DNA of 64,000 nucleotides, from NCBI RefSeq assembly GCF_000204035.1, contig NZ_GL883086.1, forward strand, positions 402,288-466,287, read 5' to 3'. The translations under genes were made by a program, and so were the position numbers. The notes below the pieces were generated by a model. That model saw only the letters and a list, made by a program, of their open reading frames with translations. It did no database searches and was not told the origin of the DNA. Shown piece by piece: positions 3,870-38,575 of the stretch. Numbering within the stretch: position 1 is the first letter of the stretch; each line of letters begins with the position of its first letter. Source of the DNA: Brevundimonas diminuta ATCC 11568. Lineage in GTDB: Bacteria; Pseudomonadota; Alphaproteobacteria; Caulobacterales; Caulobacteraceae.

Positions 3870-4673
3870 TTAGGCCAGCAAGGCTCGCGTGGCCGCTTCG
3901 ACATCCGCCTGACGCATCAGGCTTTCGCCAACCAGCAGGGCGCGGGCGCCGGCGTCGGCCACGCGCGCTACATCCTGCGGCGTAAACAGGCCGCTTTCGG
4001 CGACCAGCAGCGCGCCGTCAGGGCTCAACGCCGCCAATTGCTCGGTCGTCGCCAGATCGACCTCGAAGGTGCGCAGCGAGCGGTTGTTGACGCCGATCAG
4101 GGCGTCGTCGCGGCCTTGAACCAGCTTGGCGGCGCGGGCCATTTCATCGGCGTCGTGCGTTTCGATCAGGGCGTCCATGCCCCAGCGGGTCGCCTCGGCC
4201 AGCAGGTCTGCGGCCAGGGCGTCGTCCACCATGTCCATGATGATCAGGATGCAGTCGGCGCCCAGAGCCCGGCTCTCGGCCACCTGCCACGGATCGACCA
4301 GGAAGTCCTTGCGCAGGCAGGGCAGGGCGACCGCCGCGCGCGCGGCCGTCAGATAGGCGTCGTCGCCCTGAAAACTGGGGCCGTCGGTCAGGACGGAGAG
4401 GCAGGAGGCCCCGCCGCGCTCATAGGCTTGAGCGAGGGCGGGCGGGTCGAAGTCGGCGCGGATCAGGCCCTTGGACGGGCTGGCCTTCTTGATCTCGGCG
4501 ATCAGGGCCGGGCGGCCGGTTTCGGAGAAACGGTCAGCCAGGGCGGCGCGGAAACCGCGCGGAGGCGAGGCCTCGCGGGCGCGGGCCTCGATGGCGTCCT
4601 GTGATACGGCGGCCTTGCGGGCGGCGACATCCTCGCGCTTGTAGGCGGCGATGCGGTCCAGAACGTCGCTCAT
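3870..4673 (-). CDS. trpC: indole-3-glycerol phosphate synthase TrpC
   Basis: The 267-residue protein is a stand-alone TrpC (beta/alpha barrel) that converts CdRP to indole-3-glycerol phosphate in tryptophan synthesis. The family signature [16 protein letters not shown] holds the catalytic Lys/Glu, and [15 protein letters not shown] and VAESGL form the phosphate-binding end of the barrel. It is not fused to TrpF. Its ATG meets the stop of trpD, so it is the last gene of the trpGDC operon and is probably translationally coupled. Confidence 0.97.
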
Positions 4674-31235: not shown

Positions 31236-32141
31236 CTACCAGCGCCAGGCGTCGCGGACGACTTCGATGATGTAGCCGTCGTAGTCGTCGATCAGATAGA
31301 TCGCATTGTCGACATAGACCCATCGCGTGCCTGGAGGCGGATAGCCCAGGCCGTAGGTGCGCCAGTCGTTCACCTGATAGCGCCAGAAGACATCCGGCAG
31401 ATACTGGCCGACATAGTACTGCCGGTTCCAATAGGTGCGCGGCACGCTGTAGTAGCCGTAGCCGGGCGCGAAATAGAAGCCGATGCGCACGCCGTTCCAG
31501 CTGCGGAAGCGTTGGTCATGGCGCCACCAGTCGCTACGGTGACGACGGTCCCAGTCGCGGCGCCACTGGTCGCGATTCCAGCGGTTGTGGAACTCACGAT
31601 AGTCGCGGTCACGGTTCCACTGGCTGGGACGATCCGGCCTGTTCGGGCGGTGGGCGTCCGGGCGGCCAGGGCGGTTCCAATCCGGGCGTTCGGGACGGTC
31701 TGGGCGATGGGAATCCGGTCGATCTGGGCGCTGGGGACGGTCCGGTCGATTCCAATCGGGGCGGTCCGGACGATTGGGTCTGTCAGGCCACGGCTGATCG
31801 GGTCTCTGGGGACGGTCCGGCCGATCCGGGCGTTGTGGTCGGTCCGGTCGGCTAGGGTGATCGGGGCGATCGGGGCGGTTCCAGTCGGGTCGCTGTTCCT
31901 GCCTTTGTTCTGGCCTTTGTTCCGGCCTTTGTTCTGGTCTGCGCTCCGGTCGTTGAGGGCGCGGGCCTTCCTGGCGCGGGCGATCGGCGTCGCGGTGCTG
32001 GCGCTGAGGTTGGCCGCGATCAGGACGACGCGGACCGTCCTCGCGCGCCTGCGGCCGATCCTGGGCCAGAACAGCCATGGGGGCTGCGGCGGGCACGAGG
32101 AAGCTGGCGGCCGCCGCGAACATGAGAAGCGAGCGTTTCAT
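31236..32141 (-). CDS. RcnB-like exported protein with Arg-Pro-Asp repeats
   Basis: The 301-residue protein has a signal peptide (about residues 1-26, ending MAVLAQ), a low-complexity region of about 150 residues made of short Arg/Pro/Asp units (RPDRPQRPDRPD, with Trp-Asn inserts), and a C-terminal aromatic domain with GVRIGFYFAPGYGYYSVP, then LPDVFWRYQV and a final YDGYIIEVVRDAWRW. The C-terminus resembles the RcnB family of periplasmic proteins linked in E. coli to nickel/cobalt homeostasis. The function here is unknown. The start at 32141 gives a clean signal peptide. A related gene lies next upstream. Confidence 0.8.
   Translation of the reverse strand: MKRSLLMFAAAASFLVPAAAPMAVLAQDRPQAREDGPRRPDRGQPQRQHRDADRPRQEGPRPQRPERRPEQRPEQRPEQRQEQRPDWNRPDRPDHPSRPDRPQRPDRPDRPQRPDQPWPDRPNRPDRPDWNRPDRPQRPDRPDSHRPDRPERPDWNRPGRPDAHRPNRPDRPSQWNRDRDYREFHNRWNRDQWRRDWDRRHRSDWWRHDQRFRSWNGVRIGFYFAPGYGYYSVPRTYWNRQYYVGQYLPDVFWRYQVNDWRTYGLGYPPPGTRWVYVDNAIYLIDDYDGYIIEVVRDAWRW
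31610..32050 (-). repeat. low-complexity Arg-Pro-Asp coding repeat
   Basis: This part of the RcnB-like gene is built from imperfect units of about 9-12 bases (coding RPD, RPQ, RPDWN). Such DNA is prone to unequal recombination, so copy number may vary between strains, and assembly errors are possible here. Confidence 0.75.
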
Positions 32142-32242
32142 GGTCGAAGTCCTCGCACGTCCGAACTGGACGGCTTGCGGACAGAATGGGCCCGGGGCCA
32201 TGAACTGCTGCTGAACGTCGATCGCAGAGCGGCGTCATGAAA

Positions 32243-32272
32243 AAAGCCCCGCAAGACAGAGCCTTGCGGGGC
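32243..32272 (-). terminator. terminator after the second RcnB-like gene
   Basis: A 10-bp perfect stem (GCCCCGCAAG/CTTGCGGGGC) with a 7-base loop is preceded on the plus strand by six A residues, which form the T-tract on the minus strand. It lies 26 bp after the stop of the minus-strand gene ending at 32299, separating it from the following RcnB-like gene. Confidence 0.85.
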
Positions 32273-32298
32273 GAAGCGATACCTTGGTCCAGCGTGCC

Positions 32299-32892
32299 TT
32301 AATAGACGTCGCTCAACACGCTGGCGATCAGGCCTGTGGCGACGGCGATCAGCAGGATGTCGTTGCCGGCATGGACGTAGCGATAGCCGCGCGGAGCGGG
32401 TCTCAGATTATAGAAATAGGGGTCGTTGACGTAGTAGGAGCGATAGGCGGGCGGCAGGTAGGCGCCCGTGCGCCAGCGATAGCCGTAGTAGCGAGGTTCG
32501 ACCCGATAATAGCCGTGTCCCGGCGCATACCAGTAGCCGTTGCGTGCGCCGCGATAGTCGCGGAACTCGGGCCGCCCGCGCCACCAGTTGTGGTTGTCAC
32601 GGCTCCAGCGGTCGTATCGGCGCTGGTCCTGGCGCCATTCTCGACGATCGTCGCGACGGTCTTGACGCCACTCACGACGGTCCTGACGCCACTCACGGCG
32701 GTCCTCGCGTCGGTCCTGGCGCCATTCACGACGGTCGTCGCGTCGATCCTGACGCCGCTCACGGTGGTCGTCTCGGCGATCATGGCTCCACTCGCGGCGG
32801 TCCCCGCGATGATCCTGCGCCTGGGCCATCATGGGGGCGGCTGTGGTCGCCAGAGCGAGCGCGACGACGGCGGCCTTGGTCAGGCGGTTCAT
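32299..32892 (-). CDS. RcnB-like exported protein with Asp-Arg-Arg-Glu-Trp repeats
   Basis: The 197-residue protein has a signal peptide (MNRLTKAAVVALALATTAAP, cleavage after AQAQ near 26), a repeat region of about 70 residues built from DRREWRQDRR-type decapeptides, and a C-terminal domain with GYWYAPGHGYYRVEPRYYGY, YLPPAYRSYYVNDP and a final hydrophobic ILLIAVATGLIASVLSDVY, as in RcnB-family proteins. It is a paralogue of the gene downstream, with different repeat chemistry and its own terminator between them. The metal role of the family is known only for E. coli RcnB; here it is inference. Confidence 0.8.
   Translation of the reverse strand: MNRLTKAAVVALALATTAAPMMAQAQDHRGDRREWSHDRRDDHRERRQDRRDDRREWRQDRREDRREWRQDRREWRQDRRDDRREWRQDQRRYDRWSRDNHNWWRGRPEFRDYRGARNGYWYAPGHGYYRVEPRYYGYRWRTGAYLPPAYRSYYVNDPYFYNLRPAPRGYRYVHAGNDILLIAVATGLIASVLSDVY
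32610..32814 (-). repeat. tandem coding repeat (DRREWRQ units)
   Basis: Imperfect tandem units of roughly 21-33 bases (GACGCCACTCACGACGGTC-like on the plus strand) code for DRREWRQ and DRRDDRREWRQ blocks. Between five and seven copies are visible. The repeat is in frame, so copy-number change would not break the gene. Confidence 0.75.
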
Positions 32893-33109
32893 TTGGCAAC
32901 TCCATTCAAGAAGCGAAATCCCTGTCTGGCGTCGACTTTCACGCTGGTCGAATGAACCGTCGCTGAACCGGCCTGTCAGCTTGCGTCCGCATGCGGACAA
33001 GGGCCGCGCTGCGTGGGGCTTGAGCGCGTTAACGCTAATTTCAAACCAACGATACTTGAATGCGTGTCCGATAGCGGGGTCAGAACGACGCCGCGGGGGA
33101 GGATTGCTG

Positions 33110-33412: not shown

Positions 33413-33505
33413 TCCAGGCGGTCTGATGAAGTCTTGCGGCGTCTGGACCGGGCGGCGGCGGCGGGGTATGCACCCCGCGAGTTCCCCGTCCGAAGGATTC
33501 CGTCC

Positions 33506-33811
33506 ATGCTCGCTCGCATCTATCGCCCGGCCAAGACCGCGATGCAGTCCGGCAAGGCCAAGACGCGCGACTGGCGTCTGGAGTTCGAGCCGGCCTCGGC
33601 CCGCACCATCGATCCTCTGATGGGCTGGACCAGCTCGACCGACATGAACGGCCAGGTCCGCCTGTCCTTCGACACCAAGGAAGAGGCGGTCGAATACGCC
33701 GAACGCCACGGCATCGCCTTCCGCCTGCACGAGCCGAACGAGGCGCCGGTCATCATCAAGGCCTACGCCGACAACTTCGCCACCAACCGCAAGCAGTCCT
33801 GGACGCACTAA
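33506..33811 (+). CDS. NDUFS4-like 18-kDa accessory subunit of complex I
   Basis: The 101-residue protein matches the alphaproteobacterial homologue of mitochondrial NDUFS4: MLARIYRPAKTAMQSGKAKT at the start, WRLEFEPASARTIDPLMGWT, LSFDTKEEAVEYAERHGI, and the end FATNRKQSWTH. It stabilises the NADH-dehydrogenase arm of complex I. The start ATG 33506 gives the family N-terminus; an in-frame extension to 33434 is Arg-rich and not conserved-looking. It is the last normal chromosomal gene before the decayed phage region. Confidence 0.92.
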   Translation: MLARIYRPAKTAMQSGKAKTRDWRLEFEPASARTIDPLMGWTSSTDMNGQVRLSFDTKEEAVEYAERHGIAFRLHEPNEAPVIIKAYADNFATNRKQSWTH

Positions 33812-33814
33812 CGA

Positions 33815-34228
33815 GCGACGCCAATTGCGTTGTGCGGCTTCACTTCTCGGATCGTCTGATCGGTGTCGCGGGCCAACCAGGGTATGGGTTTGGCGATAGC
33901 GTAGAAGGTCTTGGCGCCACGCGCGGACTCAGTCCCGCCGGAACTCGTCAGATGACCGCAGGCGCTCAGGGTCAGCAACCTGGGCCAGCATCTTCATCAT
34001 CTGCTCGGCCGAAGGCGTGATGACCGTGAGCGTCGCGGTGAACACGATCATCTAGGCCAGCATCGACATGACGAACACGGGCTTGTCGAATTAGATGGCC
34101 AGCCCAAGGATAGCCAGCACGCCGGTCAGGGCTGTCAGACAGTGCAGCCGATTTGCCCAGCGCGAATGCTCAATTGTCGCCGTCGGAGCTGTAATCAATT
34201 CGAGCTTTTCTGATGATGCGTTAGTCAT
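33815..34228 (-). pseudogene. decayed phage lysis-region gene(s), holin-like
   Basis: On the minus strand an ATG at 34228 opens a frame MTNASSEKLELITAPTATI, then a hydrophobic segment LTALTGVLAILGLAI broken by TAA, a second hydrophobic stretch ending at TAG, and TPSAEQMMKMLAQVADPERL before a TGA. Past that point a different frame reads GAKTFYAIAKPIPWLARDTD. Two membrane segments in a short protein and the position at the end of phage debris suggest a holin or lysis gene, followed by part of a second gene. Three in-frame stops and a frame change make it non-functional. Confidence 0.6.
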
Positions 34229-34278
34229 GCCCGACCATCGTGATCACTGCGGGAGTCGGGAATGCACCGAAATCCGCC

Positions 34279-34929
34279 CTAGGGCCGCCGATACCAGATG
34301 CTTAGCTCGTTAGCATCACGCAGCCTTGAGGTCGGGCCGCAGAGTTGGCCGTGGTCGTCGTTCGCTTTAATGGCGTCGATGACGAAGCCGGACTGGTAGA
34401 GGAGTAGGGCTACGTCTTCGAACACGAACCGCTCGCCCTTGTAGAGGGCCACGTCATGGCTGCGGCTGCACTCCATATCGCCGCCGCGCACATTGGCAAT
34501 CATCTCGCCGAGGCCCAACAGAACCTCCATGTCGAGCCCCTGCACGTCTGAATGGAGGTGGTCGATGCGATCAATTCCGTTCTTGCGGCAAAAATCCTCC
34601 AGCCGGATCACCTCAACCTCGATCTGCTGGGTAACCGCGAAGTCCGTCCTACCCGCCCAAGTCTCTTCGATGTTGTCGGCAAAGGCGAGTAGGGATGAGG
34701 TTCCCCAGTCACCCTGACCTGCGACGTTGAAGATTGCACGGCCCGGCCAATCCGAAACGGCCTTTTCGATCAGGTGATAATTATCAAACCCAGCCGTGCG
34801 CTGGCGGATAGTTTCGGCCAACTCGGGCGTGGGCTCGAAGGCATAAACAACCCATTCAGGATTTCCGGCGAACTCTAAGCCCGCACTCCCGTCGTTTGCC
34901 CCAACATCAAAATAGACTTTCTTGTCCAT
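34279..34929 (-). CDS. FkbM-family methyltransferase
   Basis: The 216-residue protein is a class I SAM methyltransferase of the FkbM type. The SAM loop is YFDVGANDGSAG, the acidic ribose-binding residue is in VYAFEPTPE, and IDHLHSDVQGLDMEVLLGLGE is the family DxQGxE-like segment. FkbM enzymes usually O-methylate sugars or other small hydroxylated molecules; the substrate is unknown. It is intact, on the strand of the phage remnants, with G+C well below its chromosomal neighbours (34 of 60 bases in one line counted), and looks like a cargo gene of the island. Confidence 0.9.
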   Translation of the reverse strand: MDKKVYFDVGANDGSAGLEFAGNPEWVVYAFEPTPELAETIRQRTAGFDNYHLIEKAVSDWPGRAIFNVAGQGDWGTSSLLAFADNIEETWAGRTDFAVTQQIEVEVIRLEDFCRKNGIDRIDHLHSDVQGLDMEVLLGLGEMIANVRGGDMECSRSHDVALYKGERFVFEDVALLLYQSGFVIDAIKANDDHGQLCGPTSRLRDANELSIWYRRP

Positions 34930-34968
34930 GCGGGAATTCTGGCACTGCCGAGATTTTATGACAAGCTG

Positions 34969-35091
34969 CTAGATTCGCGCTTCGCAGGCGGCCGGGGTCA
35001 GCATCGACGCGCGCAGCGTCGGTTTGGCGTCCGCTGCGGCCCATGTGTTGATCGCATAGACCGCCAGACAGGCCAGACCGAACGGGATCAT
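34969..35091 (-). pseudogene. possible short phage-derived membrane ORF
   Basis: A 40-residue frame (MIPFGLACLAVYAINTWAAA, then AKPTLRASMLTPAACEARI) starts at 35091 directly after a TGA (TGATG) that ends another frame reading SFSSGIDKLDLDAP. The stop-start coupling and signal-like hydrophobic start are typical of phage lysis or tail-end genes, but both pieces are cut short upstream. I see no promoter. It is reported as a probable remnant. Confidence 0.35.
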
Positions 35092-35325
35092 CACGGGGCG
35101 TCAAGGTCCAGCTTGTCAATGCCGCTTGAGAATGACTGAACCATCCTACCTTCTTCACACCATTTGGCGATGTGTCGGCCATCACAACTCCAGGCATGAC
35201 GCATTGGGAAGGCGGCGGGGTCTTTCGGTCATCGGAGCTGTAAGCGGCATGACAGCAACAAGAGAAGGGAAGCAACGAGGAACACGCCACTCGACAAGAA
35301 CGGTCGAGCTTGTATTATCTTGGTT
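35092..35325. other. intergenic part of the island, no intact gene
   Basis: About 230 bp between the minus-strand remnants and the plus-strand gene at 35326. It holds the C-terminal end of a truncated minus-strand frame near 35092-35140 and, near 35290-35310, a small inverted repeat (CTCGAC/GTCGAG). No RNA gene or clear promoter is recognisable. Confidence 0.4.
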
Positions 35326-36054
35326 ATGCAGAATCCCCCATACATCAAGCGCTGGCCTCTCGCGGATGACCGTATGGGGATGGTCGATGCAGTGCCACAA
35401 GGTTATACGTTACGACCCGAGTTGCTCGAACAGTTTGAGAGCCTGGGTGATAATTGTGAGTTTGGGTTTGTGCAGCGGTTTCATGGCGCTGAGCCGTCTA
35501 GCTTATTCCGTTGGGCAACAGCGCCTCTACATGGGGTGCTTCGCGGGCTGGAAGACGGGTGGGCAGACATCTACTCGTGGGAGCATCTAAAGCCGTGGGC
35601 ATTCGACATGGCCTGGGACGACAAATATCAGTGCGCGTTTCATTGCGCCGTTCATAGCTCACGATCTTCCGAAGATGCGCCGTTTGAGTTTGTGCTACCC
35701 GAGGTCGAACGGCGGGCTGTTTGGGAAGCGGACCGTTCGAAATTCATTCACCTTAGGGACAAGACGATTGCGTCTCTAAAGACAGGCAATAAAATCTACG
35801 TGGTGAAGGCGAACGCTGGGCTAACGCTGAGTGAATGTCTCGCCTTGAAGGCTGCGCTAGACCAATATTTACCTCACAGGTTGCTATGCGTCGTTCCCGC
35901 ATCGACGTTCGCTTTTGATGGCGTAATGCTGATCGAGCCAGGCTTGAAACTAGCCACTATATCCACGCTCGCAAGCTACCATCGCGTTGAGTTAGCCGCG
36001 TATGGTGAGTGGACCAATCTACTGCAGACGGCAGTCGACACCCCTTGGAGTTAG
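35326..36054 (+). CDS. protein of unknown function with SLGDNCEFG motif
   Basis: The 242-residue soluble protein has a striking conserved-looking core: FESLGDNCEFGFVQRFHG near residues 37-54, SLFRWATAPL and later IYVVKANAGLTLSE. I recall similar LGxNCEFG starts in proteins found beside glycosyltransferases and FkbM methyltransferases in alphaproteobacteria, and an FkbM gene lies nearby on the other strand. No catalytic family can be named; the Cys and His in the motif could be functional. G+C is clearly low (30 of 60 bases in one line). ATG 35326 is used; TTG 35320 is the alternative. Probably horizontally acquired. Confidence 0.75.
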   Translation: MQNPPYIKRWPLADDRMGMVDAVPQGYTLRPELLEQFESLGDNCEFGFVQRFHGAEPSSLFRWATAPLHGVLRGLEDGWADIYSWEHLKPWAFDMAWDDKYQCAFHCAVHSSRSSEDAPFEFVLPEVERRAVWEADRSKFIHLRDKTIASLKTGNKIYVVKANAGLTLSECLALKAALDQYLPHRLLCVVPASTFAFDGVMLIEPGLKLATISTLASYHRVELAAYGEWTNLLQTAVDTPWS

Positions 36055-36252
36055 GGCCTCACTTCCCTGGCGACCTTAAGGTCAGCGCCAGAGACGTTTA
36101 GGAATGGCGAAGTCACAATATCAAATGTCGTGGCGGTAATCCTGCCGCGACACGCCGTTTCAACGCCGCTCAGGTCAGGATTCGATAGATACGACAGTTC
36201 ACAATATCTGTGGAGATAACACAGTCGTTTTTATGGGCGGGTATGTTACCTG

Positions 36253-36825
36253 TTAGGTCAACAGCCTGCAGGGCGCAACCTCTTCGGTTGCCGTGTTCAG
36301 CGCCGTCAACTCGCCCAAAATGAACCAGCGATTGCCTGTCTGCTGCATCACACGATCGCGGCAGGGCGGGGCCCAAAGTCCAGCCCCGCTTGCAGCGCCA
36401 CGCTTGATGCTGCGTGCAGTGGCGACTTCGCAACGTGAGTGTCGCGGACGAACATCGGGAACACAGGCAGGTCTGACTGCGAGATCATCACGCGGTTCAT
36501 CAGGTCCGCGTCGATCTCGTCCTTGGTCCGGCCCTCCAGCAGGCCCATGAGCCGGCTCGGCTCGACGATGTTCAGGTTTTCGGTGACTCGAGCCACGTCT
36601 TGATCGTGGTGTTCAGCAGGTCGGGATAGCTGTTGTGGATCACCAGCCACCGCGACCGTCGCTTGCCAGTGAGATCCGGCTCGACGTTCATCATGGCCTC
36701 GTAGATGCGCACTACGCTGGCGACGGACTTGCCCGATAGTATCGGCCCCTGAATGCAGACCACGTTCGCGCAGCTGTAGGATACTTCTCGAGCGTCTCGC
36801 CGTTAGGTGTGTAGGTTCGTCCCAT
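36253..36825 (-). pseudogene. phage terminase large subunit remnant (terL)
   Basis: On the minus strand three frames piece together a TerL-like protein. It begins MGRTYTPNGETLEKY, then in another frame VVCIQGPILSGKSVASVVRI (a Walker-A-like ATPase motif) and RWLVIHNSYPDLLNTTIKTW, then after a junction VEPSRLMGLLEGRTKDEID, SDLPVFPMFVRDTHV and ALQAGLDFGPRPAAIV, and after another frameshift QQTGNRWFILGELTALNTA. ATPase and nuclease-proximal parts are both present, but a large middle segment is missing and at least two frameshifts occur. It marks the region as an old prophage transcribed leftward. Confidence 0.75.
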
Positions 36826-36997
36826 GCGGCCATGCTTGCGACATGGCCCGCACGCCAGAATGCACCGTCAGATTTCGCCGTCGGCTATCGGCTTCATCAG
36901 TACATAGCGCCGCAATATGTCCGCCACGTAACTCGGCAACGTCGTGCGGCGGACCACAGAATCCGCGTCGAGCCGGTGTCCACAATCGTGAGACCCA

Positions 36998-37156
36998 TCA
37001 GCTTGATCTTCCCATCAGGCCTTGGCCGCTGTTCGCGTGTGTGAGAGAGCGGCCTTGATCGCTGAATGCCCGTTCAATTGCCTGGAACTGTTCTTGCGAT
37101 AGGCAGAGCGATAGCAAGGTGGCGAGGAATGCGCAGAGGAAGCGCGGACTCGTCAT
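36998..37156 (-). pseudogene. short signal-peptide-like ORF next to the tRNA
   Basis: A 52-residue frame starts at 37156, ten bases from the tRNA-Arg 3' end, with a hydrophobic leader (MTSPRFLCAFLATLLSLCLS) and a polar remainder. An overlapping frame continues GKIKLMGLTIVDTGSTRIL. It may be the broken first gene of the phage block. I do not recognise it. Confidence 0.3.
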
Positions 37157-37165
37157 CTAATCGAG

Positions 37166-37242
37166 TGGCGCGCCCATCAGGACTCGAACCTGAAACCTGC
37201 CGATTAGAAGTCGGCTGCTCTATCCGGTTGAGCTATGGGCGC
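37166..37242 (-). tRNA. tRNA-Arg (anticodon TCT)
   Basis: The minus strand reads as a complete 77-base tRNA including an encoded CCA. The acceptor stem GCGCCCA/TGGGCGC is perfect, the D-arm is GCTCAACCGGATAGAGC, the anticodon stem-loop is GCCGA-CTTCTAA-TCGGC with anticodon TCT, and the T-arm has GGTTCGAGTCC. It decodes AGA. The 3' end faces the phage remnants, as expected for an integration site. Confidence 0.96.
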
Positions 37243-37378
37243 GGCGGACGCCCGATAGCAGGAGATGCGATCCTTGTGAACGGCTGACGAACAGGAGTCT
37301 GGCGGATAGGTCAGGCAGGCGTCTGACAAAACGCAAGAAGCTTTTCCATTCAGATGCATATGGTCGTGGAGCGCCCGC

Positions 37379-37423
37379 CTTCTAATCGGCAGGTTTCAGG
37401 TTCGAGTCCTGCAGGGCGCGCCA
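37379..37423 (+). repeat. inverted partial copy of tRNA-Arg (attachment-site-like)
   Basis: These 45 bases match the tRNA-Arg from anticodon loop to CCA at 43 of 45 positions but lie on the opposite strand, 168 bp from the tRNA. A tRNA 3' half of this extent is a common attachment-site core of tyrosine integrases. The copy forms the last codons and stop of metC. The anticodon stem no longer pairs on its 5' side, so it is not a functional tRNA. Confidence 0.9.
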
Positions 37424-38575
37424 TGCCTTCAATCCCTTCTCAAGATCGCCGATCAGGTCGGCGGGGTCTTCCAGCCCGATATGCAGACGCAGCAACTGAC
37501 CGGACAGGTCGGGCGCATGCTGCCGATGGGCCAGTTGCGGGGTTTCGTGGGTGATCAGGCTCTCGAAGCCGCCCCAGGAATACCCCATGCCGAACAGGCT
37601 GAGCGCGCGCATGAAGGCGTGGGCCGCCGCTGTGTCGCCGCCCTTCATGACCACGCCCATCAGGGAGGCCGCGCCGTCGAAGTCGCGCCGCCACAGGTCG
37701 TGTCCGACCGAACCGGGCAGGGGCGGATAGAGGACGTCGGCGACCTCCGGCTGGGCTTTCAGCCACTGCGCCACCGTCAGGGCCGAGCGGGCCTGGGCCT
37801 CGTAGCGCAGGGGCAGGGTGCGGACGCCGCGCAGCGCCAGCCAGGCGTCGTCGGGCGAGACGTGCCAGCCCATGTCCTCGATGGTGTTTGCGATGGAGCG
37901 TAGAACGGACGGCTCGCCGGCGGCGATCCCGCCCATCAGCAGATCGGAATGGCCGCCGACGTATTTGGTCAGCGCCTGGACGCTGACGTCGACGCCATGC
38001 GCCAGGGGACGGAAGGCCAGCCCCGCCGCCCAGGTGTTGTCCATGACCGTCAGAACGCCGCGTTCGCGACAGGCGGCGGCCAGGGCGGGGGCGTCTGCGA
38101 TCTCGAAGGTCAGAGAGGCGGGCGCTTCGATCAGCAGAAGTCGGGTGCGTGGGGTGATGGCGGCCAGAACGGACTCGGCCGAGGCGTCGGCGGGGTGGAA
38201 GCGGGCGGTGATCCCGCGCGCGGCGAGGTGGCGGGTCAGGAAGCGGCGCGTGGGTCCATAGACGGCGTCGGTGGTCAGCACCTCGTCGCCGGGACGCAGC
38301 AGGGCGGTCAGGGGCACGGTCACGGCCGCCAGGCCCGAGGGGACCAGGAAGGCGTCGGTCCCGCCCTCCATCTGGGCCAGCAGGGAGCGCAGCTCGCGCG
38401 CCGCGCTCGTGCCGTCGAGGCCATAGACGGGGCCGTCCGACGCATCCTGCATCCGCGCCGGATCGTCGCTGAGCATGGTGGAGGCGCGCTCCACAGGAGG
38501 ATTGACCGGGCGACGGCCCTGGCCGCGCCGGGTGGCGCCGGCGATCAGCCGGGTTCGGTCGGAAATGGGCGGCAT
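37382..38575 (-). CDS. metC: cystathionine beta-lyase (Cys/Met metabolism PLP enzyme)
   Basis: The 397-residue PLP enzyme of the Cys/Met family has TDAVYGPTRRFL, LIEAPASLTFEI and the Schiff-base lysine in SVQALTKYVGGHSDLLMGG, as in MetC-type beta-lyases that cleave cystathionine to homocysteine. The tail GLKAWRALQDSNLKPAD is unusual: the last ten or so residues and the stop are encoded by the tRNA-Arg repeat, so the original C-terminus was probably replaced. The core ends normally just before, so activity is likely kept. A gamma-synthase or other family activity cannot be excluded from sequence alone. Confidence 0.88.
   Translation of the reverse strand: MPPISDRTRLIAGATRRGQGRRPVNPPVERASTMLSDDPARMQDASDGPVYGLDGTSAARELRSLLAQMEGGTDAFLVPSGLAAVTVPLTALLRPGDEVLTTDAVYGPTRRFLTRHLAARGITARFHPADASAESVLAAITPRTRLLLIEAPASLTFEIADAPALAAACRERGVLTVMDNTWAAGLAFRPLAHGVDVSVQALTKYVGGHSDLLMGGIAAGEPSVLRSIANTIEDMGWHVSPDDAWLALRGVRTLPLRYEAQARSALTVAQWLKAQPEVADVLYPPLPGSVGHDLWRRDFDGAASLMGVVMKGGDTAAAHAFMRALSLFGMGYSWGGFESLITHETPQLAHRQHAPDLSGQLLRLHIGLEDPADLIGDLEKGLKAWRALQDSNLKPAD

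Follow-up and report, generated by a model that had tools for sequence, protein, structure and literature searches.

We propose that a temperate phage carrying its own tRNA-Arg(TCT) gene on the opposite strand split the native tRNA-Arg(TCT) gene of Brevundimonas diminuta ATCC 11568 and then decayed, and that its tRNA replaced that of the host; we regard this history as quite probable. It was read from a window of 64,000 nucleotides (contig NZ_GL883086.1, positions 402,288 to 466,287), together with genomes of the genus and phage contigs from IMG/VR.

ARAGORN returned a single tRNA for the whole window, a tRNA-Arg(TCT) at 37166-37242 on the minus strand (tRNA positions are numbered linearly along the 77-nt gene). 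The initial annotation had noted that 43 of 45 bases, nt 33-77 of this tRNA, recur on the opposite strand with 168 bp between the arms, and a recount gave the same figures. A repeat search of the window delimited two inverted arms of 55 nt each (37166-37220 and 37369-37423; 91% complementary, 148 nt gap), with 33 bases as the longest identical run between them, and a 32-base core pattern had two occurrences in the window, whereas 100 shuffles gave a mean of 0.00. This confirms the inverted pair. The annotation had also called for a search for further copies of the 45-bp core; across the assembly of the strain none were found beyond the pair, and the tRNA sequence was found only at 37166-37242 and 37369-37423, the one other match being a tRNA-Asn at 84%. 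Among 131 genus genomes, the core pattern with one free position occurred in one, B. diminuta ATCC 11568, and no inverted pair was found in the others with the patterns used. A pattern for the 3′ half of tRNA-Arg had at least one copy in 123 of the 131, none in eight and two copies in seven; these two copies were direct and on the same contig in four genomes (G001, G024, G016, and G088), split over contigs in two (G094 and G107), and inverted on one contig in G000 alone.

Which of the two arms is the newcomer follows from relatives that carry no element. In G007 the NDUS4-like gene is followed after 18 bp by tRNA-Arg(TCT) on the plus strand and then by metC on the minus strand (metC 90% identical), and the same order holds in G050, G061, and G101 (metC 83-89% identical). 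The initial annotation had asked whether relatives without an element carry the same inverted pair; this was not seen, each of these four genomes having one match to the tRNA-Arg 3′ half, beside metC, in the place and orientation of what the annotation called the copy. The proposed attB therefore lies in a host tRNA gene, a native tRNA-Arg(TCT) standing at the same spot in all four. Alignment of the window with G007 breaks off at the NDUS4 stop (33809) and resumes at 37369, such that ~3.56 kb in the window replaces ~42 bp of G007 (the spacer and tRNA nt 1-22). On this alignment, the supposed copy at 37369-37423 is the damaged native gene, a host tRNA-Arg without nt 1-22. The newcomer is the complete gene on the minus strand (37166-37242), since it lies inside the insert; the roles originally assigned to the two are reversed.

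The left flank of the host is the NDUS4-like gene itself (NADH dehydrogenase Fe-S protein 4; 33434-33811, plus strand; Pfam PF04800, E 4e-38; synteny with G007 to ~33809), the direct upstream neighbor of native tRNA-Arg in element-free relatives. At the other end, the putative attachment junction (37369-37423, plus strand) consists of the core CCGCCTTCTAA (37375-37385) and the host tRNA-Arg 3′ half, equal to G007 tRNA nt 23-77 at 50 of 55 positions; ARAGORN found no tRNA here, and the fold is unexceptional (z = -0.09). It is followed by metC (Cys/Met metabolism PLP enzyme; 37382-38575, minus strand; Pfam PF01053, E 1.4e-92; end supported by C-termini in relatives), whose reading frame ends, with its final codons and its TAG stop (37382-37384), on the strand opposite the 3′ half and anticodon loop of the tRNA. 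The same antisense overlap is present in G007, in G015, and at the metC-side junction of G001. As to whether the copy is a conserved part of metC, it belongs to metC only because the native tRNA 3′ half is antisense to the end of that gene. As a separate observation, the phage core TTCTAA keeps the metC TAG stop (window 37382-37425; L006, L007, and L018).

The insert is a remnant prophage of about 3.56 kb (33812-37368), bounded by the alignment breakpoints against G007. Its left part (33814-33993, minus strand) is shared with G103 and G085 (DNA 73%; minus frame 65% and 59%) and is probably phage; it had no PHROG family match of its own, and its G103 homologue lies between endolysin-like and phage exonuclease-like ORFs (neighbors PHROG 181 and 704). 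An FkbM-type methyltransferase ORF follows on the minus strand (34279-34929; Pfam PF05050, E 8e-16; PHROG 8156; 68% DNA identity to a G047 homologue), and then a plus-strand ORF (35320-36054) without a Pfam or PHROG match but 28.8% identical to a hypothetical Erwinia phage phiEt88 protein. Two fragments of a terminase large-subunit gene (36272-36813, minus strand) match the terminase gene of G118 at 74% and 76% in blastn and that of L116 at 76% and 81%; compared with G118, ~450 bp are missing from the interior. The window ORF had no Pfam or PHROG match, and it is identified as a terminase through its homologues in G118 and IMG/VR; for the G118 protein the family match is to PHROG 2 (terminase large subunit). 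Near the right end are the last 16 codons (DSKVARNAQRKRGLVI) and the stop of a tyrosine-integrase gene (37110-37160, plus strand; 73-93% over 15 aa at 11 related loci, not all of them independent), whose full-length homologues match the PHROG 1 integrase. A gap of 5 bp separates the integrase stop from the CCA end of the minus-strand tRNA, and the left junction (attL) with the host 5′ half is absent from the window. The view of the initial annotation that a tyrosine-integrase attachment site lies here next to phage debris is supported. Left of the insert, at 31236-33000 on the minus strand, two reading frames carry long low-complexity repeats rich in Arg, Pro, and Asp.

The complete minus-strand tRNA-Arg(TCT) (37166-37242; ARAGORN), which we read as a phage-borne replacement, has stems that pair (GCGCCCA/TGGGCGC and, in the anticodon stem, GCCGA/TCGGC). 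Its fold beats 199 of 200 shuffles (z = -3.24) but its minimum-energy structure is not a cloverleaf, whereas the tRNAs of L122 and G007 fold as cloverleaves (z = -1.95 and -1.69). A TCT-anticodon tRNA pattern matched no second gene in the assembly, which is 95.65% complete, and apart from the minus-strand gene no complete tRNA-Arg(TCT) was found in it. Between this tRNA and the core lies a spacer of 132 bp (37243-37374), recognized by its alignment to the spacers of L122 and L123 and scanned for motifs. Promoter-like elements can be picked out by eye on its minus strand (TTCACA at 37280-37275 and GCTATC at 37259-37254), although a sigma-70 scan detected no promoter. A single arm-type-like site (AGTCTGGCGG, 37296-37305) is also present, against an expectation of 0.28.

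The same arrangement exists in phages. Three IMG/VR contigs (L122, L123, and L124) have int on the plus strand, a complete tRNA-Arg(TCT) on the minus strand, 133 bp, and a plus-strand core CCGCCTTCTAAGCGG; in the window the spacing is 132 bp, and a complete tRNA-Arg(TCT) likewise stands beside the integrase remnant. The phage core is the host tRNA anticodon stem-loop and little more, on the int strand and inside the contig, with a match of 15-16 bp to a host tRNA. A pattern scan of IMG/VR (5′ end of a minus-strand tRNA, 110-140 bp, core) returned these three contigs and no other. Their integrases match that of G144 at 51-52% and are 98-100% identical to one another, and so represent one lineage; the L123 and L124 modules are identical, while L122 and L123 differ in their tRNAs, and their spacers align at 67%. 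The L122 tRNA has the same anticodon arm as the window (GCCGA-CTTCTAA-TCGGC), and the L123 record includes a terminase that matches the G118 one at 74% identity. L123 also has, at 4146-4409 and between int and the tRNA, a gene whose 3′ end runs antisense into the phage tRNA (C-terminus AQQDSNLQHPA), mirroring the metC overlap.

The window spacer aligns to the phage spacers (134-base slices, one core base included) better than 3995 (L122) and 4000 (L123) of 4000 random window pieces (z = 3.5-3.6). Native flanks of G007, G001, G050, G061, and G101 did not stand out against the phage spacers (z = -0.5 to 0.2), but the flank of G003 was raised over the whole spacer (z = 2.0, 107/4000), as were those of G082 (z = 2.5, 52/4000) and G005 (z = 1.9, 142/4000) over the 60 nt nearest the tRNA, so shared tRNA promoter elements may add to the spacer similarity. 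We conclude that the inverted tRNA is cargo of the attachment module. The initial annotation had reasoned that the inverted pair requires an inversion, a double integration or a post-excision rearrangement; this requirement is not supported, an opposite-strand tRNA being part of the module in three IMG/VR contigs, and the inverted pair is probably not an inversion product.

An inversion is nevertheless the alternative that fares best, and we consider it unlikely. It would start from the usual 3′-half integration, with the tRNA rebuilt beside int as in G003 and G144, and would later turn around the segment from the NDUS4 stop to the metC junction. The integrase stop speaks for it: 5 bp from the CCA end in the window, against 335 bp in L122 and 221 bp in L123 and L124, it resembles the 3 bp of the 3′-type remnant in G003, where int and tRNA are convergent too. 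A 3′-type element is present at the same site in G001, with an integrase remnant in such a position in G003, and host anticodon stems vary (CCTGC/GCAGG in G050, G061, and G101), such that GCCGA/TCGGC could be a host variant. Against this, the flank upstream of the minus-strand tRNA is unlike native spacers and like phage spacers, by the z scores given above, and the distance from tRNA to core fits the phage modules. Host 5′ and 3′ parts, in our reading of the alignment, would give mismatched pairs in the T-stem or acceptor stem, and the order of terminase (minus strand) and int (plus strand) is the same as in G118.

On the reading that the phage tRNA was the substitute, the replacement tRNAs keep the TCT loop and differ in at least one stem pair from the CCGC/GCGG core, their stems being GCCGA/TCGGC (window and L122) and CCAGC/GCTGG (L123/L124). 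Host stems vary as well (CCTGC/GCAGG also in G082). That the stem change stops the integrase from targeting the replacement tRNA is offered as a hypothesis only, given few independent cases and the variation among host stems. Seven genomes with odd stems were fetched as candidates for further replacement. Five (G050, G061, G082, G101, and G117) were set aside as host variants, because their tRNA adjoins the NDUS4-like gene; the others were G003, with its integrase remnant, and G141, in which the piece fetched held no complete tRNA. Compensated changes of the native stem (CCTGC/GCAGG and CGTGC/GCATG) occur in genus members L142, L143, L144, L145, and L146, and possibly represent escape from the phage core.

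Other elements at the same tRNA in G001, G118, and G003 agree with the suggestion of the initial annotation that the site has been used more than once. A related prophage of ~45 kb (C1:2583317-2628552; L092, L083, and L084) occupies the same tRNA-Arg(TCT) in G118. It is like the window in its site, in its related terminase and integrase, and in their orientation relative to metC, with terminase on the minus and int on the plus strand. It is unlike the window in bringing a tRNA 5′ half and in having the complete tRNA on the metC side: at its left end, after the end of the NDUS4-like gene, are 46 bp that repeat the tRNA 5′ half, and its right end has a complete tRNA. The G118 prophage thus appears to rebuild the tRNA from the phage 5′ half, and no tRNA gene of its own was found in the pieces fetched. 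In G003 (L148:4535-4689), the C-terminal remnant of an integrase faces an intact tRNA-Arg(TCT) 3 bp away, with NDUS4 ~160 bp off on the other side of the tRNA and metC ~2.3 kb away; this is another decayed element.

Members of the integrase family lie convergently beside tRNA 3′ ends in G144 (tRNA-Asn), G103 and G070 (tRNA-Lys), and G003 (tRNA-Arg), go with tRNA 5′ halves in G118, in L149/L120 (one record, tRNA-Pro) and apparently in Phenylobacterium L125, and go with a whole tRNA in L122-L124 and, as we infer, in the window. Thirty integrase loci from IMG/VR (L164 and L172 being two places in one contig) were typed with a library of 54 tRNAs and 16 anticodons: a complete tRNA was found at three, a tRNA-Pro 3′ end at 11, a tRNA-Pro 5′ half at one, and short tRNA-like matches at two, the other 13 (five of which end at int) not being typed. 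Canonical integration at tRNA 3′ ends (G001, G144, G103, and the tRNA-Pro phages of IMG/VR) uses the same kind of site as the window, and G144, G103, and the tRNA-Pro phages have the integrase family in common with it. Canonical integration differs in that the tRNA 3′ half is repeated directly and the tRNA rebuilt, whereas the repeat in the window is inverted and no complete plus-strand tRNA is present. The 3′-type element of G001 sits at the same site as the element of the window.

Two further candidates were rejected. Phenylobacterium L125/G150 was considered as a case of tRNA disruption, but its contig also has, 49 kb off, a complete tRNA-Arg, which the prophage apparently rebuilds. L081 of IMG/VR was considered as a relative of the module and shares the anticodon arm, but it has a tRNA-Arg/tRNA-Trp pair and nothing of the module was seen; it only shows that a GCCGA-type anticodon arm occurs in a phage. 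An exact-core scan of the genome contig collection gave 0 matches. A search of INPHARED with the island DNA returned 315 records, the best 20 of which match the tRNA stretch only, and with the G118 integrase INPHARED gave no match. A viral scan with the same integrase gave three candidates, none confirmed, and a scan of genome contigs with an integrase alignment gave 34 candidates, of which two were confirmed, one being the G103 contig.

The G118 prophage brings up the second alternative, that a phage of its kind gave the 5′ half and the rebuilt plus-strand tRNA worked until it lost 22 nt, the minus-strand tRNA being a chance backup. In its favor are the 46-bp 5′-half repeat of G118, its complete tRNA on the metC side with int adjacent, and its terminase related to that of the window; moreover, GAGCGCCCGCC, left of the loop at the window junction, matches the 5′ side of the G007 tRNA at 10 of 11 positions, and could be host rather than phage sequence. 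The phages, however, have their 133 bp without any further 5′ half, and a later deletion would have arrived at the matching 132 bp only by chance; we hold this alternative to be very improbable. Tycheposons are tRNA-associated integrative elements with a complete tRNA, and because of the phage terminase pieces the element is unlikely to be one. Least probable of the three alternatives, to the point of being nearly negligible, is a local inverted duplication by template switching during replication with no phage integration: the inverted arms are only 148 nt apart and their 33-bp identical stretch hints at sequence exchange, but the complete gene is in the new place and the fragment at the native position, the differences outside the common stretch keep the stems of the complete gene paired, and the same arrangement is present in phages.

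Replacement of the split host tRNA by a phage tRNA, which we continue to regard as likely, would have proceeded as follows. The host tRNA-Arg(TCT), flanked by the NDUS4-like gene and metC, would have been entered at its anticodon loop by a temperate phage using a tyrosine recombinase. What the phage attP had in common with the tRNA would have been little beyond the anticodon stem-loop (in related phages CCGCC TTCTAA GCGG; a 15-bp core), and with so short a core neither junction would rebuild a tRNA. Between int and the core, on the opposite strand, the phage would have brought a complete tRNA-Arg(TCT) with its own upstream region, and this tRNA would have taken over AGA decoding. Deletions would later have taken away the left junction along with the host 5′ half, and the greater part of both int and the phage; without that 5′ half, the prophage could no longer be lost. 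By gene conversion or a template switch, a 33-bp stretch of the remnant would also have taken on the phage tRNA sequence. Compared with nt 23-77 of the G007 tRNA, the remnant differs at five positions; at four of these (nt 40, 44, 45, and 50) it agrees with the minus-strand tRNA, and the four fall within the 33-base identical run. This identity is best read as gene conversion (or template switch), probably from the phage tRNA to the remnant.

Several points weigh against this history. An intact lysogen of the same exact type was not found, and L125/G150 apparently rebuilds its tRNA from a phage 5′ half. The missing attL and the mere 16 integrase codons count here too, as does the distance of the integrase stop from the tRNA, which departs from the phages and approaches the 3′-type G003. 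The three phage contigs amount to one integrase lineage with two identical modules, and the 33-bp conversion is an extra assumption. The promoter scan, the minimum-energy fold and the completeness of the assembly, all given above, count against it as well.

If this history is true, the locus shows the leftovers of tRNA-dependent lysogeny in a host whose only detectable AGA tRNA is phage-derived, and one integrase family has three attachment designs (3′ half, 5′ half, and whole replacement tRNA). It also yields a search rule, to look beside int for a complete tRNA and, ~130 bp away and facing it, a stem-loop fragment of that tRNA, and the rewritten anticodon stem of the phage tRNAs suggests a testable rule of self-protection. 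More tentatively, a ratchet may operate: once the host half is deleted, the prophage would be free to decay while its tRNA could never be lost, and stem-rewritten phage tRNAs would permanently replace essential host genes and evade the same integrase, leaving the cell resistant to phages with the same core.

tRNA-dependent lysogeny has been described in mycobacteriophages (Fionnbharth, cluster L, and Gaia; Guerrero-Bustamante and Hatfull 2024, PMC10865867). That system resembles the one proposed here in its tyrosine integrase, an attB in a host tRNA gene, a core too short to restore the tRNA, and a phage tRNA of the same isotype; in Gaia, the tRNA gene is downstream of int and attP is inverted relative to the genome (PMC10865867, Figure 6 legend). 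It differs in host and isotype, with no tRNA-Arg among the rows shown of its Table 2, and it is backed by experiments; the prophage of the window is a remnant. The main text of PMC10865867 contains no word beginning with decay, domesticat, cryptic, Proteobacteria, Caulobacter, or Gram-negative. It does name an earlier candidate, the Lj965 prophage of Lactobacillus johnsonii, in which, as told there, the tRNA is not rebuilt and a cognate tRNA is carried; the host is again another one. In Sinorhizobium meliloti, Lo5R7ANS-like prophages inactivate the host tRNA-Leu(UAG) and replace it with a prophage tRNA resembling that of another species (PMC11476347). They are like the window in that an alphaproteobacterial host tRNA is inactivated and a prophage tRNA serves as substitute, and unlike it in concerning tRNA-Leu(UAG) and in being labeled int-Phs, which we take to mean intact (PMC11476347). 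Sinorhizobium prophages without such tRNA replacement also exist (PMC12429752). The titles and abstract openings listed on tRNA-dependent lysogeny, on Brevundimonas prophages and tRNA-Arg, and on tRNAs of prophage remnants do not describe the present case, which is no proof of novelty. Set beside these systems, what appears to be new here is the tRNA-Arg(TCT), the genus Brevundimonas, and a fossil end state from which the left junction and the host 5′ half have gone.
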